Assembly: GCA_903933715.1 (NCBI GenBank)
Contig: CAIZLD010000067.1
Coordinates: forward strand, 1 to 64,000
Length of the DNA: 64,000 bases
Direction of reading: 5' to 3'
Source: an uncultured Spartobacteria bacterium
GTDB lineage: Bacteria > Verrucomicrobiota > Verrucomicrobiia > Chthoniobacterales > Chthoniobacteraceae
The notes beneath the pieces were generated by a model. That model was not told where the DNA came from. It worked only from the letters and a program-made list of their open reading frames with translations, and did no database searches. Numbering within the stretch: position 1 is the stretch's first letter; each line of letters starts with the position of its first letter. This document shows positions 10,662 through 17,567 of this stretch, one piece after another. The translations under genes and the position numbers were made by a program.

Positions 10662-11558
10662 TTATTTTCTCAAACGCAAATAGAAGGTGTATCCGAACCA
10701 AAACCCGAGAAAAAACACGAGAAGGGCCAGCGAACTTCCAAAAGCGGCCCACGGGTTTCGGCTGACTTCCGCGGCGACAACATAGAAATCCGCGGAAGTC
10801 GCGATTGCCAGCGGCACCATCGCCGCCAGGACAAAGCGATTCGCAACCTGATAAAAACGCTCGGTGTCTTCTCCTCCTTCTACGATCCGGTGAAACGCCG
10901 CGGGGCTCATGAGCAAAATGATGCTCAACGCCACAAGAAAAAGGCTGATCAGGTGCGTCATCTTCGAAAACTCAGGCAACGCCTGGAATAAATCGGTAAA
11001 AAATATGATGAATTGAAAACCCAGGAGCGCTTGGACTCCCGGAAGAACCATTCGTGCTTCCGTCAAGACGTGCTCAATTTTTAACCATAGCGGCGTTGGC
11101 TCATTCTGATCCATCGGTTCCATAAATTTCTCAGGTCTTCTAAGGGAAATGGATTCGATTCCGAACCACGAAAAAAGCGCCAAAAGAAAGCTAACGATGC
11201 CGGTCGCAAGTGCAAAACGCGGGCTGATAACCGTAAAGGAAGCCAAGAAGAGCGAGATTCCAAGCGAAGCGGCGAATGGGAATAGGGCGGCTTCCGTGAC
11301 ATGGGTCGTAAACCGGTGCATCCCCTTGGTGTCCTCTCCTCGACAGACAATGGTGTGAAAGCAGGCCGGTGCAATGAGGAGGGCTAAAACCAGCAGCATC
11401 ATAAGCAACGACGAAAGGGCCAGGTATTGGAGCATCATCGGCAACTGGTAGAATCCTTTCTCGAACACAGCCCGCCATTGGAAACCAATGATCACCTGAG
11501 AGCCGAGAATCAGAATTCGGCCTTCATTAAGCGCATCCTGGAGCTTTGTTTGTGCCAT
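10662..11558 (-). CDS. Tandemly duplicated DUF6328 membrane protein
   Basis: 298 residues from the ATG at 11558 (MAQTKLQDALNEGRILILGSQ). The frame is open to 11696, but that would overlap the lexA promoter and lexA start and adds an Arg-rich tail unlike the family. The protein contains two copies of the same four-helix unit: LNEGRILILGSQVIIGFQW...PACFHTIV..GEDT and LTEARMVLPGVQALLGFQF...PAAFHRIV..GEDT, each followed by two more helices. DUF6328 proteins normally carry one unit of about 150 residues. A conserved His-Arg/Thr-Ile plus GEDT follows helix three in both halves. Function unknown. Divergent from lexA, with 118 bases between starts. Confidence 0.8.
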   Translation of the reverse strand: MAQTKLQDALNEGRILILGSQVIIGFQWRAVFEKGFYQLPMMLQYLALSSLLMMLLVLALLIAPACFHTIVCRGEDTKGMHRFTTHVTEAALFPFAASLGISLFLASFTVISPRFALATGIVSFLLALFSWFGIESISLRRPEKFMEPMDQNEPTPLWLKIEHVLTEARMVLPGVQALLGFQFIIFFTDLFQALPEFSKMTHLISLFLVALSIILLMSPAAFHRIVEGGEDTERFYQVANRFVLAAMVPLAIATSADFYVVAAEVSRNPWAAFGSSLALLVFFLGFWFGYTFYLRLRK

Positions 11559-11639
11559 CCGCTTGCGTATCGGGAACGCGGCTGCCGCTGGCTTTGTAGA
11601 ATTGAGAGGGGCCGTGGTCACACGTTGACGCAATCTTGC

Positions 11640-11675
11640 TTGAAAACCGGAATACATCGCATATATTAACGATGT
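11640..11675 (+). promoter_or_regulatory. lexA promoter with overlapping dyad operator
   Basis: TTGAAA (11640-11645), a 16-base spacer and TATATT (11662-11667) make a good sigma70 promoter. The -10 box lies inside an inverted repeat, ACATCG (11654-11659) and CGATGT (11670-11675), which ends one base before the lexA ATG at 11677. Transcription would begin at or next to the ATG, so the message is probably leaderless. The dyad placement is what an autorepressing LexA needs. That this dyad is the LexA site is inference. The motif differs from the E. coli and Bacillus SOS boxes. Confidence 0.6.
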
Positions 11676-11676
11676 T

Positions 11677-12345
11677 ATGCCGCGACCTCTCACCACTCAA
11701 CTTTCCGCGCCTCAGCAAAAAATCGCCAAAGCAATTGCCGCCATTGAGCGTGAGGGGTTTCCCGCGACGATCAGCGGATTGATAGGCAAATTGGGCATGG
11801 CGGGGAGTTCCAGCCTGGTGCCGACGCTCCGGATTATGGAGCGCAATGGGTTTATTGCCATCCGGGGTGGAGGAGGCACGGGGCGGGATCAGTTGGTCAA
11901 ATTGACCCCCAAAGGGCGCTATGCTGTGGCGGAAGGCGGGTTGCCCGTCCTCGGCTCGATCCCGGCAGGATTGCTCGAAGAAGCCATCGCGGAATCCGAA
12001 ACCATTTTGGAAGATCATGAATTGCTGCCTTACCGGGCGGGCGACTTCTTGCTCCGGGTGAAGGGAGACTCGATGATCGGGGACGGCATTTTTTCCGGCG
12101 ATCATGTTTTGCTTCGCCCCAACGTGGAGGCCGTGCAAGGGGAGATCGCGGCGGTGATGGTGGGGGCTGAGAGCGGGGAATGCGAGGCGACGCTCAAGCG
12201 TTTCTATCTGGAAGGCCGGGGCGGGCGAACGGTCCGGCTTAAGGCGAGCAATCCAGCGTATGCCGACATACTGGTGCCCGCGGGCGAAGTCAAAATTGCA
12301 GGGGTGTTCAGGGGGTTGATCCGTTATGCAGACCATCGCGCATGA
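11677..12345 (+). CDS. lexA: LexA repressor heading a mutagenesis cassette
   Basis: SOS repressor with autoprotease activity, 222 residues. The N-terminal winged helix covers about 1-75 (APQQKIAKAI, SSLVPTLRIMERNGFI). The cleavage bond is Ala97-Gly98 in GSIPAG. Catalytic Ser132 lies in VKGDSMIGDG and Lys174 in ATLKRFY. All residues for RecA-stimulated self-cleavage are therefore present. It overlaps imuA by 20 bases and leads the operon lexA-imuA-imuB-dnaE2. In other phyla such cassette LexAs control the cassette itself. Whether it is the only LexA in the genome cannot be seen here. Confidence 0.93.
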   Translation: MPRPLTTQLSAPQQKIAKAIAAIEREGFPATISGLIGKLGMAGSSSLVPTLRIMERNGFIAIRGGGGTGRDQLVKLTPKGRYAVAEGGLPVLGSIPAGLLEEAIAESETILEDHELLPYRAGDFLLRVKGDSMIGDGIFSGDHVLLRPNVEAVQGEIAAVMVGAESGECEATLKRFYLEGRGGRTVRLKASNPAYADILVPAGEVKIAGVFRGLIRYADHRA

Positions 12346-12970
12346 GAACGGAACCAGGGAGGGTAAAATCACTGAATTACGGGCGTTGCTGGGGGAAAAA
12401 TTCCCCCAGCCGATCGTTCGCCGTGGGGGGAGCTCTGTAGCTGCCGGTTCCGGGTTTCCGGAATTGCGGGGCGGCGTGGTCACGGAAGTTACGGGGTCCA
12501 TCGGCTCCGGCGCGCTTTTTTTGGATGCGCTGATTGCATCTGCTCAATCCGGGGGGCTGCTGGTTGCTTTGGTGGACGGCTCGAGCAGCTTCGATGTCGT
12601 TCCGATGCGGGGGCAACCCGGACGGCTGCTCTGGGTTTTATGTAAAGAGGCATCTGCCGCGATCAAGGCGGCCGATCTCCTGCTGCGCGACGGCAATCTG
12701 CCGCTGGTTGTGCTCGATTTGCAGATGAACCGGGATTTGAGCCGCATCCCGGCAACGACTTGGTATCGGTTCCAGCGCATGATGGAGCTGTCGGCGGCGA
12801 CATTTGTGGTGCTTACGCCACATCCCCTGGTGAGCAGCGCGGCGGAACGCTTTGAACTGCGTGGCGGCTGGACTTTGCGCGAAATCCAGCAGCGGCGGAC
12901 GGAACTGAAACCCACGGCCACGCGTATCCACCGGCGTGCTCTCGCTGTTCTGGAGCGGCAAACGGCATAA
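12326..12970 (+). CDS. imuA: ImuA-like mutagenesis protein
   Basis: 214 residues, recognised mainly by position between lexA and imuB and by a weak RecA/SulA-like core: VVTEVTGSIGSGALFLDALIA, SGGLLVALVDGSSSFDV, LPLVVLDLQ and WYRFQRMMELSAATFVVLTPHPL. The Walker A-like loop reads GSIGSGAL with no lysine, so ATP binding is doubtful. ImuA proteins of this cassette act with ImuB and DnaE2 in damage-induced translesion synthesis and mutagenesis. The start codon lies inside the end of lexA, indicating translational coupling. The imuB Shine-Dalgarno follows the stop immediately. Confidence 0.82.
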   Translation: MQTIAHENGTREGKITELRALLGEKFPQPIVRRGGSSVAAGSGFPELRGGVVTEVTGSIGSGALFLDALIASAQSGGLLVALVDGSSSFDVVPMRGQPGRLLWVLCKEASAAIKAADLLLRDGNLPLVVLDLQMNRDLSRIPATTWYRFQRMMELSAATFVVLTPHPLVSSAAERFELRGGWTLREIQQRRTELKPTATRIHRRALAVLERQTA

Positions 12971-12982
12971 GGAGGAGTGAAG

Positions 12983-14461
12983 GTGTTTTGCGCGTTATTA
13001 ACCCCGAACTATCGCCTGGCTGCGGCGTTTCGCTATCGCGAGGAGTTCTGGAGTCGTCCCGTTGCGATGGTCGATTCCGACGGTTCTGAAACGGTGGTGG
13101 TGGAGTTAACTTCTGCTGCCGCAAAATCCGGAGTGGAGGTGGGGATGACCCCTCCGCAAGCAATGGCACGCTGCCCGGAACTCCAGATCCTAAGCCGCAC
13201 CCCTGCCGCCGAGAGAACTTTGAGCGAAACGCTTCTGGGGATCGCTTGCGGAGCGTCGGCTTATGTCGAAGCCACGGCTCCCAATCTCTGCACGCTCGAT
13301 TTGAAAAGCTGCCGGTTGCAAGGCGTGAGCTTGGAAATGTGGGGCAAAGCTTTGCTGGAAAAAGCAAAAGCGACGGGGCTTGGCATCCGGTTGGGGATTG
13401 CGCCCAATCCCGATCTCGCCCTGGTTGCCGCCGAGTGCGCCAACGCCGCGCATCCCGTGCGAGTGGTGACCAACTCGCCCAAATTTCTGGGCGGCCTTTC
13501 CCTGCGCGTGCTTGCTCCGCCCGCACCGGTTGCCGCCATTTTGCAAAGTTGGGGGATCACCACGCTGGGGGAACTGACCCGGCTGAAGCGGGATGACGTG
13601 GCGGCCCGCTTGGGGCCGGATGGGGTTCACCTTTGGGATCAAGCGAACGGGCGTTCCACCCGGCTGCTGCGGTTGGTGCGTTCGCCGGAGAGTTATGAGG
13701 AAGCATTCGATTTCGAGCGGGAACTGGATACCGCACAACCGTTGCTGTTCCTGTTGCGACGCTTTGTGGATCAACTTGCTGCCCGATTAAATGCCGCCGG
13801 GTTGGTTGCCGGAGAAATGAGGCTGTCGATGCCTCTGAGCGATGGAACCCGCTATGAACGGCTGTTTCAAATTCCGTCGCCCACGGCCAAAGCCGATCTG
13901 CTCTTTCGCATTCTCGACACGCATTTTGAAAACCTGCGGCTCGATCACGCTCCCGTTGGAGTCCGGCTCAACATGGAACCGGCCAAGGCCGAGCATCAGC
14001 AATTCCAGCTTTATGAAAATGCGCTGCGTGATCCCAACCGGTTTGCCGAAACCCTGGCCCGCATCAGCGCTGTCGTGGGAAATGGCAACGTCGGCGTTCC
14101 CGGGTTGAAAGGGACGCACAAGCCGGATCAATTCACGCTCACAATGCCCGACTTCAATGCACCCGTGCGTTCATTCGCCTCGGGCAAACCGGCCGTCGGC
14201 TTGCCGTTGCGCCGGTTCCGTCCACCGCTTCCGGCGCAGGTGCATGCGGTTGCAGCAGAGCTGCCGCGCCCGCGTTACATCGTTTCCGAACAGGCCCATG
14301 GAGCCGTGGTGGATGCGCTGGGCCCGTATCGCATCTCGGGAGACTGGTGGGAGGCTGCGTGGAGCGCCGAGGAATGGGATGTGCAGATGGAGGATGGCGG
14401 GCTTTATCGGATTTCGCGTCACGGCGAGGCCTGGACCGTGGAGGGCTGTTATGATCTCTGA
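12983..14461 (+). CDS. imuB: ImuB, Y-family polymerase-like clamp adaptor
   Basis: 492 residues from GTG 12983. An in-frame GTG at 12977 touches the GGAGG at 12971-12975, whereas 12983 is 7 bases from it and gives the usual ImuB opening (MFCALLTPNYRLAAAF). The Y-family fold is clear (GMTPPQAMARCPEL, LGIAPNPDLALVAA, LTRLKRDDVAARLGPDG). However, the acidic residues expected after the first strand and in the SxDE motif are missing (here FCALLTP and YVEATAP). ImuB proteins are catalytically dead adaptors joining DnaE2 to the sliding clamp. The C-terminal ISGDWWEAAWSAEEWDV is the ImuB-C domain. It overlaps dnaE2 by 11 bases. Confidence 0.9.
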   Translation: MFCALLTPNYRLAAAFRYREEFWSRPVAMVDSDGSETVVVELTSAAAKSGVEVGMTPPQAMARCPELQILSRTPAAERTLSETLLGIACGASAYVEATAPNLCTLDLKSCRLQGVSLEMWGKALLEKAKATGLGIRLGIAPNPDLALVAAECANAAHPVRVVTNSPKFLGGLSLRVLAPPAPVAAILQSWGITTLGELTRLKRDDVAARLGPDGVHLWDQANGRSTRLLRLVRSPESYEEAFDFERELDTAQPLLFLLRRFVDQLAARLNAAGLVAGEMRLSMPLSDGTRYERLFQIPSPTAKADLLFRILDTHFENLRLDHAPVGVRLNMEPAKAEHQQFQLYENALRDPNRFAETLARISAVVGNGNVGVPGLKGTHKPDQFTLTMPDFNAPVRSFASGKPAVGLPLRRFRPPLPAQVHAVAAELPRPRYIVSEQAHGAVVDALGPYRISGDWWEAAWSAEEWDVQMEDGGLYRISRHGEAWTVEGCYDL

Positions 14462-17400
14462 GTTTGTCGAGCTTCACGCCCGAAGCGCTTTCAGTTTTCT
14501 GCGCGGAGCCTCGTGCCCGGAGCAGCTCGCCCGGCAAGCCGCCGTGCTTGGGATGCCGGCTCTGGCGTTGTGTGATCGCGACGGCGTGTATGGCGCGCCG
14601 CGTTTATTTGCCACCGCCAAAGAACACGGGCTGCGAGCCATTGTCGGCGCGGAACTTTCAATGCTCGATGGCAGCGTGCTTCCGGTGTTGGTTGAAAACC
14701 GAACCGGATACCAAAACCTTTGCCGTTTGATTACCCAGGCAAAGTTGCGCGGCAGCAAAACCGATGCGCCGGTAATGTGGGAGGATCTCCCGGAATTTGC
14801 GGAAGGGCTTGTTTGCCTGACCGGCGACGAAGAGGGGGCTCTGCGACAGAGCCTCGAACGGGGTGACCTCGACGGGGCGGAAACCGGTGTGCGGCGATTG
14901 CGTGCTATCTTTGGCGCGGGCAACGTCTATGTGGAAATTCAACGCCACCTGGAACGCGGCGAGCAATGGGTCAACAGCTTGCTCGTTCAACTCGCCGCAT
15001 CGGAGCGGCTCCCGCTCCTCGCCAGCAACGGCGTCCTTTACGCCGAACGTGGGCAGCGCGCGACCCTGGATGTGCTCACCTGCATCCGCAACCATACCCA
15101 TCTGGATGTCGCCGGTGAGCTTTTGAGCCGGAACAGCGAGAGGGGATTGAAGCCGGCGCGCCACATGCGGAGGCTCTTTGCCGATCTCCCCGAGGCGCTC
15201 TCCAACACCGTTTATCTGGGCGATCGGCTGCAATTTTCCATGGAAAACCTCGGCTACGAATTCCCGCGCTACCCGGTGCCGCAAGGGGAAACAATGGATA
15301 GCTTTCTCCGCAAAGTCACCCTTGCCGGGGCACGAGCCCGCTACACGCACCTGGGTGCTCCGGCTCTGGCTCAGCTCAATCGGGAGCTGGCGCTTATTGA
15401 GAAGCTTGGTTTCGCCGGTTATTTTCTCATCGTCTGGGACATCGCGAATTTTTGCACCGAACACGATATCTTAATGCAAGGGCGGGGGAGCGCCGCCAAT
15501 AGCGCGGTTTGTTATTCGCTTGGCATTACCTCTTGCGACCCGATATCCAACCATCTCCTTTTTGAGCGGTTCCTGAGCGAGGGCCGCAAAGGCTGGCCCG
15601 ATATTGATCTCGACCTCCCCAGCGGCTCGCGGCGGGAAAGCGTGATCCAGGAACTCTATAGGCGCTATGGCCGCCACGGGGCCGCGATGACGGCCAACAT
15701 CATCACTTTTCGGGGGAAAAGCGCGCTGCGGGAAATCGGCAAAGCGCTCAACTTCCCGCCCGATGTTTTGAACCGGTTTTCGAGCCTTTATGCCAGCGGC
15801 GATTTTCCGCATACGCTTGATCTTCAGACGCATCTCCAGTCGGCGGGCATGCCTCTGGAACATCCCCGAGCGGCCGCATTTCTTTCCCTTTATCCGCAAC
15901 TTTATGGGCTGCCGCGCCATCTTGGCCAGCACTCCGGGGGGATGATCATCTGCCAGGGGATGCTCGATTCCATGGTGCCGCTGGAGCGTGCTTCCATGCC
16001 GGGCCGCGTCGTGGCGCAATGGGATAAAGATGATTGCGAAGACCTCGGCATCATCAAAGTCGATCTGCTGGGCCTCGGGATGATGTCTGTATTGCAGGAA
16101 AGCCTGGAACTCTGCCGCAGCCAGGGACGCCCCGTGGAAATGGCGGCGATTTCCCGCGACGACCCCGCCGTGTTCGAGTTGATGCAGCGCGCGGAAACGA
16201 TAGGCGTTTTCCAAATCGAGAGCCGGGCGCAAATGGCCACGCTCCCGCGCATGCGCCCGAAGACGTTCTATGATGTTGTCATTGAAGTCGCCATTATCCG
16301 CCCCGGCCCGATTCAGGGCGACCTCGTCCACCCGTATTTGAACCGCCGCGCCGGATGCGAGCCGGTCGATTACATTCACCCGCTGCTGGAGCCGGTGCTC
16401 AAGCGGACCTTGGGCGTGCCGCTGTTCCAAGAGCAAATCCTCAAGGTGGCCATGGTGATCGCTGATTTCCGCGGCGATGAAGCCGAAGAACTTCGGCGTG
16501 CGCTCGGTTTCCATCGTTCCGATGAGCGGATGCGCAAAGTGATTCTGAAACTTCGCGCCGCCATGGAGCGCAAAGGCATCGGCCCAGAGGCCATCGAAAA
16601 AGTGATCAAAGGGGTGGCTTCTTTCGCGCTCTACGGGTTTCCCGAAAGCCACGCTATCTCCTTTGCCAACCTCGTCTGGACAAGCGCCTGGCTGAAGGTG
16701 CATCGAACCGCCGAGTTTTTCACCGGTTTGCTCAATAACCAGCCGATGGGATTTTACTCCCCCGCCACGCTTCTGCGCGACGGCAAGCGGCACGGGCTGC
16801 GTTTCAAACCGGTCTCGGTGCTGCATTCGCAATGGAAATGCACGATCGAAGAGGAAGGCTGCATCCGGCTCGGTTTCTGCCTGGTGCGCGGCTTAAGCAC
16901 GGGGCGCGGAAAGCGGATTGCCGCGCAACGTGCGGAGCAGCCTTTCGTTTCGCTGCACGATTTCCGAACCCGCACCCAGCTCGCCAAAGATGAATTGCGC
17001 GTTTTGGCCAAGATCGGCGCGCTCAATGGGTTGGCCGAACACCGGCGCGACGCCCTCTGGCAAGTGGAAGAGGCGGTCGATCCCGGCGACCTGTTTTCGT
17101 GGGTCAACCGTAACACCAAAGAACCGGCCTCAATGGATCAGCCGCTTGCGCCAATGAGCCCCGGTGAGCGGACCGAGGCGGATTACCACGGCACCGGGCT
17201 TACGGTCGGACCGCACCCGATGCAACTCGTTCGCGCCGATTTTCCGCATCTTTGGCGGGCTGCGGATCTGCCTGAAGCGCGGAACGGAGATTGGGTCGCC
17301 ATCGCGGGAAACGTGATCTGCCGTCAACGCCCCGGTACGGCCAAGGGATTCGTTTTTGTGAGCGTGGAAGACGAGACGGGGATCGCCAATGCAGTCATCG

Positions 17401-17567
17401 CGCCCGCGCTTTTTGAAAAGCTGCGGCTCTTGATTACGCAGGAAAATTTCCTCGTCATCACGGGCCGTCTTCAGAACGCCGACAAGGTCATTCACATCCG
17501 CGCTTCCAGCGTGGAGCGTTTGGGCGAGACCTTGCTCCACGGCTCGGGCTCACATGATTTCCACTGA
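14451..17567 (+). CDS. dnaE2: Error-prone DNA polymerase III alpha subunit DnaE2/ImuC
   Basis: 1038 residues from ATG 14451, which overlaps the imuB stop. The open frame extends far upstream through imuB but has no family similarity there. The N-terminal PHP domain begins FVELHARSAFSFLRGAS, with the second metal His replaced by Arg, a degeneration usual in DnaE2. The polymerase catalytic Asps lie in PDIDLDLPSG near 383 and KVDLLGLG near 537. An OB fold covers about 940-1030. DnaE2 is the translesion polymerase of the cassette, recruited through ImuB after LexA derepression. It lacks the long C-terminal tau-binding tail of replicative DnaE. Confidence 0.95.
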   Translation: MISEFVELHARSAFSFLRGASCPEQLARQAAVLGMPALALCDRDGVYGAPRLFATAKEHGLRAIVGAELSMLDGSVLPVLVENRTGYQNLCRLITQAKLRGSKTDAPVMWEDLPEFAEGLVCLTGDEEGALRQSLERGDLDGAETGVRRLRAIFGAGNVYVEIQRHLERGEQWVNSLLVQLAASERLPLLASNGVLYAERGQRATLDVLTCIRNHTHLDVAGELLSRNSERGLKPARHMRRLFADLPEALSNTVYLGDRLQFSMENLGYEFPRYPVPQGETMDSFLRKVTLAGARARYTHLGAPALAQLNRELALIEKLGFAGYFLIVWDIANFCTEHDILMQGRGSAANSAVCYSLGITSCDPISNHLLFERFLSEGRKGWPDIDLDLPSGSRRESVIQELYRRYGRHGAAMTANIITFRGKSALREIGKALNFPPDVLNRFSSLYASGDFPHTLDLQTHLQSAGMPLEHPRAAAFLSLYPQLYGLPRHLGQHSGGMIICQGMLDSMVPLERASMPGRVVAQWDKDDCEDLGIIKVDLLGLGMMSVLQESLELCRSQGRPVEMAAISRDDPAVFELMQRAETIGVFQIESRAQMATLPRMRPKTFYDVVIEVAIIRPGPIQGDLVHPYLNRRAGCEPVDYIHPLLEPVLKRTLGVPLFQEQILKVAMVIADFRGDEAEELRRALGFHRSDERMRKVILKLRAAMERKGIGPEAIEKVIKGVASFALYGFPESHAISFANLVWTSAWLKVHRTAEFFTGLLNNQPMGFYSPATLLRDGKRHGLRFKPVSVLHSQWKCTIEEEGCIRLGFCLVRGLSTGRGKRIAAQRAEQPFVSLHDFRTRTQLAKDELRVLAKIGALNGLAEHRRDALWQVEEAVDPGDLFSWVNRNTKEPASMDQPLAPMSPGERTEADYHGTGLTVGPHPMQLVRADFPHLWRAADLPEARNGDWVAIAGNVICRQRPGTAKGFVFVSVEDETGIANAVIAPALFEKLRLLITQENFLVITGRLQNADKVIHIRASSVERLGETLLHGSGSHDFH

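Follow-up and report, generated by a model that had tools for sequence, protein, structure and literature searches.

A predicted LexA operator over the promoter of a lexA–imuA–imuB–dnaE2 operon in an uncultured Spartobacteria bacterium

The sequence immediately upstream of lexA in the window (the whole 64,000-nucleotide stretch of DNA that was analysed) contains an inverted repeat that we assign as the autoregulatory operator of a subfamily of verrucomicrobial LexA proteins. The repeat lies over the −10 element of what is predicted to be the leaderless promoter of the repressor's own mutagenesis operon, and we put the probability of this assignment at roughly 0.8. All of the features described below are on the forward strand.

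The promoter, the dyad and the operon

The preliminary description had proposed a promoter of the form TTGAAA-N16-TATATT, and this is borne out both by the sequence (11640–11667) and by a promoter scan. The −35 element TTGAAA (11640–11645) and the −10 element TATATT (11662–11667) are separated by a 16-nt spacer and form the single sigma-70-type promoter in the scan of 11540–11740, with ten of the 12 consensus bases (0.1 expected from shuffled sequences). The dyad ACATCG-N10-CGATGT, which had been claimed to cover the −10 box and to abut the lexA start, is present and does so: it is perfect over 11654–11675, with arms ACATCG (11654–11659) and CGATGT (11670–11675), and a single T separates it from the ATG of lexA (11677–11679). 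The unit that is conserved is slightly unlike the dyad first reported; it is ATCG-N10-CGAT (11656–11673), a relaxed form of the family consensus ATCGTG-N6-CACGAT. The family does not share the outermost AC/GT seen in the window dyad. The predicted operator core, ATCGCATATATTAACGAT (11656–11673), corresponds to ATCGCA-N6-AACGAT, from which the inner TG/CA of the consensus is gone. Since nearly all of the other sites keep this inner TG/CA, the affinity of the window operator may be reduced or shifted.

Within one genome the evidence for the dyad is modest, because a perfect 6+6 dyad is found within 40 nt before the ATG in 6.5% of shuffles (P ≃ 0.07). A match to ATCGTG-N6-CACGAT with three or fewer mismatches is found in the same 40 nt in 0.8% of shuffles. 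Across the window ACATCG-N10-CGATGT has eight matches with two or fewer mismatches against 2.55 expected, a number reached in none of 100 shuffles, and the lexA dyad is the only exact match among the eight. A search of the whole genome for this motif, as had been suggested, returned the lexA copy and one other exact match, C76:8846, which has a GC-rich centre, lies within an open frame with CorA-like sequence (from a reading of the translation) and was judged to be due to chance.

The lexA gene (11677–12345) encodes a 222-residue S24-type repressor (Pfam PF00717, 73 bits, above the cut-off). The match to the LexA DNA-binding domain (PF01726) has a score of 19.5 bits (E = 8e-4), below the cut-off of 23.7, and that to the NCBIfam lexA family (TIGR00498) has a score of 98.2 bits, below the cut-off of 110.95; the full-length profile match to LexA structures has E values of 1e-20 to 1e-26. 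The cleavage site A97-G98 and residues Ser132 and Lys174 are kept and invariant, and they align with solved LexA chains. These matches suggest a divergent LexA. The end of lexA is overlapped by a gene that we take to be imuA (12326–12970); it has no Pfam or NCBIfam match, and it was placed, and is named, from its position in the cassette and from relatives. It is followed by imuB (12977–14461), a Y-family polymerase-like gene identified by matches to IMS domains, and by dnaE2 (14451–17567), which encodes an error-prone DNA polymerase (NF004225, 1172 bits; cut-off 939) and overlaps the end of imuB. The genes between 11677 and 17567 overlap or stand 6 nt apart.

Conservation of the dyad and the LexA clade that carries it

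The comparison set consisted of 24 loci, from 23 genomes, at which a close relative of the window LexA is encoded (G037 contributes two loci; L046 is the same as G340 and L051 the same as G201, judged by contig position or sequence identity, and each was counted once). Failure of the dyad to be conserved in relatives had been named beforehand as grounds for rejecting it. A dyad within three mismatches of ATCGTG-N6-CACGAT is present at 23 of the 24 loci, with the start codon 0, 2 or 3 nt downstream; the sole exception is the lexA of G041, a member of the same LexA clade. From the outermost pair inwards, the bases are complementary at 16, 22, 23, 21, 22 and 18 of the 23 loci. The outermost pair is A-T in 13 of them and G-C in three, and the second pair is C-G at three loci and T-A in the remainder (one mixed). 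The AT-rich core of the dyad is kept across the loci, and at 19 of the 23 a TTG (−35) precedes the dyad by 14–17 nt, a distance that places the −10 element in the AT-rich centre. The site of the genus-mate G002, ATCGCGGATATTAGCGAT, is like that of the window in being without the inner TG/CA. A further type of dyad at the lexA promoter, CATATACCGAACAAATGAACGGTATATG, is seen at L034 and L035, with a similar one at L033 (three genomes of one family).

In a tree of 45 LexA proteins, in which 18 dyad-bearing rows were used, all 18 dyad-bearing LexAs and that of G041 form one clade (support 99/96). Nine other verrucomicrobial LexAs form a separate clade (100/99), and several of these have TGTTC-N4-GAACA or a similar box near the start codon; the LexA box of Verrucomicrobia, described by Erill and coworkers in 2016 for Verrucomicrobium spinosum, is reportedly TGTTC-N4-GAACA. 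No dyad of the ATCGTG type was found in this canonical verrucomicrobial clade, nor, by eye, at the start codons of four loci from other phyla that fall just outside the dyad-bearing clade (L059, L061, L063 and L070); the Pseudomonas LexAs in the tree are placed elsewhere. Because the other verrucomicrobial LexAs have TGTTC-N4-GAACA-like boxes, the operator belongs to one LexA subfamily and not to the phylum. Of the earlier suggestion of a phylum- or cassette-specific operator, the cassette-specific part is thus favoured and the phylum-wide part falls, the dyad being tied to one LexA clade. At the window lexA promoter TGTTC-N4-GAACA is absent from 11600–11680, and the E. coli-type CTGT-N8-ACAG is also absent, the half-sites in that frame being TCGC and ACGA. 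The window genome has two exact matches to TGTTC-N4-GAACA, neither of which is on the lexA contig.

Chthoniobacter flavus has a canonical LexA and, on another contig, a LexA of the dyad-bearing clade, and its imuA–imuB genes are apart from lexA. The imuA promoter (L257, about 705 nt before imuB) has TGTTCGTGTGAACA at the expected −10 position with the ATG right after it; the order is TTGACG, 9 nt and TATATGTTCGTGTGAACATATATG, which is a canonical box in the position of the clade operator. The predicted promoter layout is therefore common to both LexA lineages and the operator code is different. The clade lexA genes at L048 (C. flavus ctg40) and L051 have operators of the ACCGTG type, and the frames near them read as replication-, relaxase- and recombinase-like. 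Among viral contigs, a single weak relative was the only candidate for a phage-borne copy.

As a general rule, a −10 element at 11662–11667 puts the start of transcription at about 11673–11677. The pairing of the 20 nt before lexA with the anti-Shine–Dalgarno sequence is between +0.6 and −3.3 kcal/mol at the 24 loci, so that strong pairing is found at none of them, and for imuA, imuB, dnaE2 and one upstream gene of the window it is −9.8 to −12.2 kcal/mol (for dnaE2 the stretch used lay 6 nt beyond the ATG). A start codon 0–3 nt after the dyad and the lack of a Shine–Dalgarno sequence fit, and support, the predicted leaderless lexA message.

From the sequences we infer the following course of events. 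A LexA dimer on ATCGTG-N6-CACGAT (here ATCGCA-N6-AACGAT) would span the −10 box and the predicted start site and would thereby block RNA polymerase at the sigma-70-type promoter. Upon DNA damage, LexA would cleave itself at A97-G98 under stimulation by RecA, so freeing the promoter, and the whole lexA–imuA–imuB–dnaE2 operon would be made. With transcription beginning at the ATG or a few bases from it, lexA would be translated leaderless and the downstream genes by way of their Shine–Dalgarno sequences.

Half-site geometry, helix III and alternative readings

The SOS box of E. coli is CTGT-N8-ACAG. Set by eye in the same frame, the clade motif is TCGT-N8-ACGA, with an identical spacing of the half-sites, so that the same dimer spacing can serve. 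The claim that the operator is unlike the known SOS boxes thus holds for its bases, which differ from those of both the CTGT and TGTTC boxes, but not for its geometry, which is that of the E. coli box. PMC3091678 gives the E. coli SOS box as a 16-bp palindrome and the base-contacting residues of helix III as 39, 41, 42, 44 and 45. The window LexA aligns without gaps to the E. coli LexA structures across helix III, residues 43–51 (GSSSLVPTL; codons at 11803–11829) being equivalent to 39–47 of E. coli, and its residues 44 (Val) and 40 (Ser) in E. coli numbering are unlike those of the family. We compared residues with operators at 16 loci, collapsed from near-copies and non-independent, over 150 alignment columns. 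A change at residue 45 accompanies the outer T-to-C change (4/6 versus 0/10, p = 0.008, second of the 150 columns) and a change at residue 44 accompanies an inner change (5/7 versus 1/9, p = 0.035, tied second to third), associations that do not survive correction over the 150 columns. The comparison is suggestive of variation of helix III residues 44 and 45 with the half-site.

The same differences could mean that the operator in the window has decayed and that tight control has been lost in the genus, which we consider unlikely. The inner TG/CA is gone in both the window genome (G000) and G002, and residues 44 and 40 depart from the family, as noted; however, despite a 19% difference between their proteins, the two genomes keep ATCG-N10-CGAT and the −35/−10/ATG spacing, and the change in the site is shared and accompanied by one in helix III, a pattern that resembles drift of the code and not loss. 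There is also rather little probability that the dyad is the site of an unrelated regulator of the operon, with LexA acting elsewhere or not at all. The dissimilarity from the E. coli CTGT and TGTTC boxes would suit such a regulator, but the operator and the LexA clade go together, the site accompanies lexA also at loci with no imu gene found alongside (L046, L047, L048 and L051), the half-sites are spaced as in the E. coli LexA box and, more weakly, helix III varies with the site. Control of lexA translation by an RNA hairpin before the start codon is very improbable: the arms could pair around a 6–10-nt loop, but the predicted −10 element is within the dyad and the −35 element is at a kept distance, so that the 5′ arm would stay untranscribed, and no terminator-like site was found in 11540–11740. 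A chance palindrome, for all that shuffling of the 40 nt produces 6+6 dyads, is scarcely credible because the dyad is kept at a fixed place at 23 of the 24 loci.

Extent of the regulon and relation to known systems

The assembly (2.80 Mb, 97% complete) has one S24 protein above the cut-off, the window LexA, and no second LexA was found in it. A scan of this genome allowing one mismatch or fewer to ATCGNNWWWWWWNNCGAT gave 36 sites, i.e. lexA and 35 others, of which 30 are intragenic by a script that took open frames of 100 amino acids or more. Of the remaining five, one coincides with the beginning of a nuoH-like frame, one falls within a cobalt-transport-like frame missed by the script, one precedes an aminotransferase-like frame and two are in unclear surroundings. 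From a reading of the translations, no recognised SOS gene is beside any of the 35. The recA promoter of this genome has neither a box of the ATCGTG type (best match with five mismatches) nor TGTTC-N4-GAACA. With one S24 protein, no operator at recA and no SOS gene at the other sites, the regulon in the window genome is likely to be the lexA operon only.

A search of 21 genomes with YCGTGWWNNWWCACGR gave 53 sites, 13 of them at lexA; 19 of the other 40 were inspected, and 16 of these are in open frames. Of the three outside frames, one precedes an ilvD-like frame of G002 by 86 nt and two are intergenic dyads, in G076 and G082; no shared regulon target was seen among the 19. RYCGTG-N6-CACGRY was rejected as a regulon query because it is too loose. 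A recA gene was found in 22 of the 23 genomes, and the best match to the consensus at these 22 loci has three to five mismatches, except in G076 (two). The assigned recA start is probably too far upstream in G015, G037, G082 and G019; the last two were re-read by eye, and G082 then showed a dyad with two mismatches. In G076 (L215) and G082 (L214) the dyad is ATCGSG-N6-CCCGAT (ATCGSG-AAATAT-CCCGAT), 17–34 nt before recA, and it may represent a variant LexA site through which recA is controlled there. The genus that includes G082, G076 and G340 has a solitary lexA with the operator and a separate imuA region without it; the cassette is therefore not always under the clade LexA, and, with the recA dyad of G076 and G082, this suggests that membership of the regulon may differ between lineages.

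In a wider draw of 384 genomes from the class, 13 encode a clade LexA with an E value no higher than 1e-40. The cassette is patchy even within the genus of the window genome, since G001, G003 and G004 have no LexA of the clade type and no imuB; the SOS repressor may be absent from these altogether (in G004 there is just a weak S24 match).

We give about even odds to a broader interpretation, in which this is a second verrucomicrobial LexA lineage with its own code, the sole LexA in several genomes, controlling only its own mutagenic operon with recA outside, and in which this code continues to change by coupled substitutions in helix III (residues 44/45) and in the half-site. If so, the SOS response would here be stripped to damage-induced mutagenesis. 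If LexA binds the dyad, one phylum would have at least two LexA codes. LexA is the standard case of a repressor and its DNA code changing together, and here two lineages in one phylum would have the same layout (operator over the −10 element, start codon immediately after) with unrelated codes. The loci offer about twenty natural protein–operator pairs with graded changes at base-contacting residues, so that the order of events (helix or operator first) could be tested by swapping parts. The promoter rule could also serve as a simple finder for damage-induced mutagenesis operons in uncultured Verrucomicrobiota.

No earlier description of ATCGTG-N6-CACGAT was found in the literature listings and openings of abstracts searched, which leave out most subscription papers. 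The TGTTC-N4-GAACA box of Verrucomicrobia is from the same phylum and is also near the start codon at several loci, but it has other bases, another half-site spacing and a separate LexA clade. The E. coli SOS box shares the 16-bp frame, the spacing xxGT-N8-ACxx and the AT-rich centre, and differs in its half-sites (CTGT versus TCGT) and in the base-contacting residues of helix III. In Pseudomonas putida, LexA2 has a divergent operator and a regulon that is not known to extend beyond its own cassette, and a second, canonical LexA is present, whereas the window assembly holds one. The two systems are alike in having a LexA that heads imuA–imuB–dnaE2, a divergent operator and, as predicted here, a self-limited regulon. 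PMC8072749 names the P. putida lexA2-imuA-imuB-dnaE2 operon in a figure legend and describes the lexA-imuY-imuB-C-dnaE2 operon of Deinococcus deserti, the latter being lexA-headed and induced by damage, with an SOS-independent recA response. The D. deserti operon resembles that of the window as a lexA-headed mutagenesis operon with recA outside the SOS response, and differs in that the window has an imuA-like gene and in its LexA and operator. Set beside these systems, the predicted site apparently represents a new class of operator in a known kind of repressor and cassette, and not a new kind of system.
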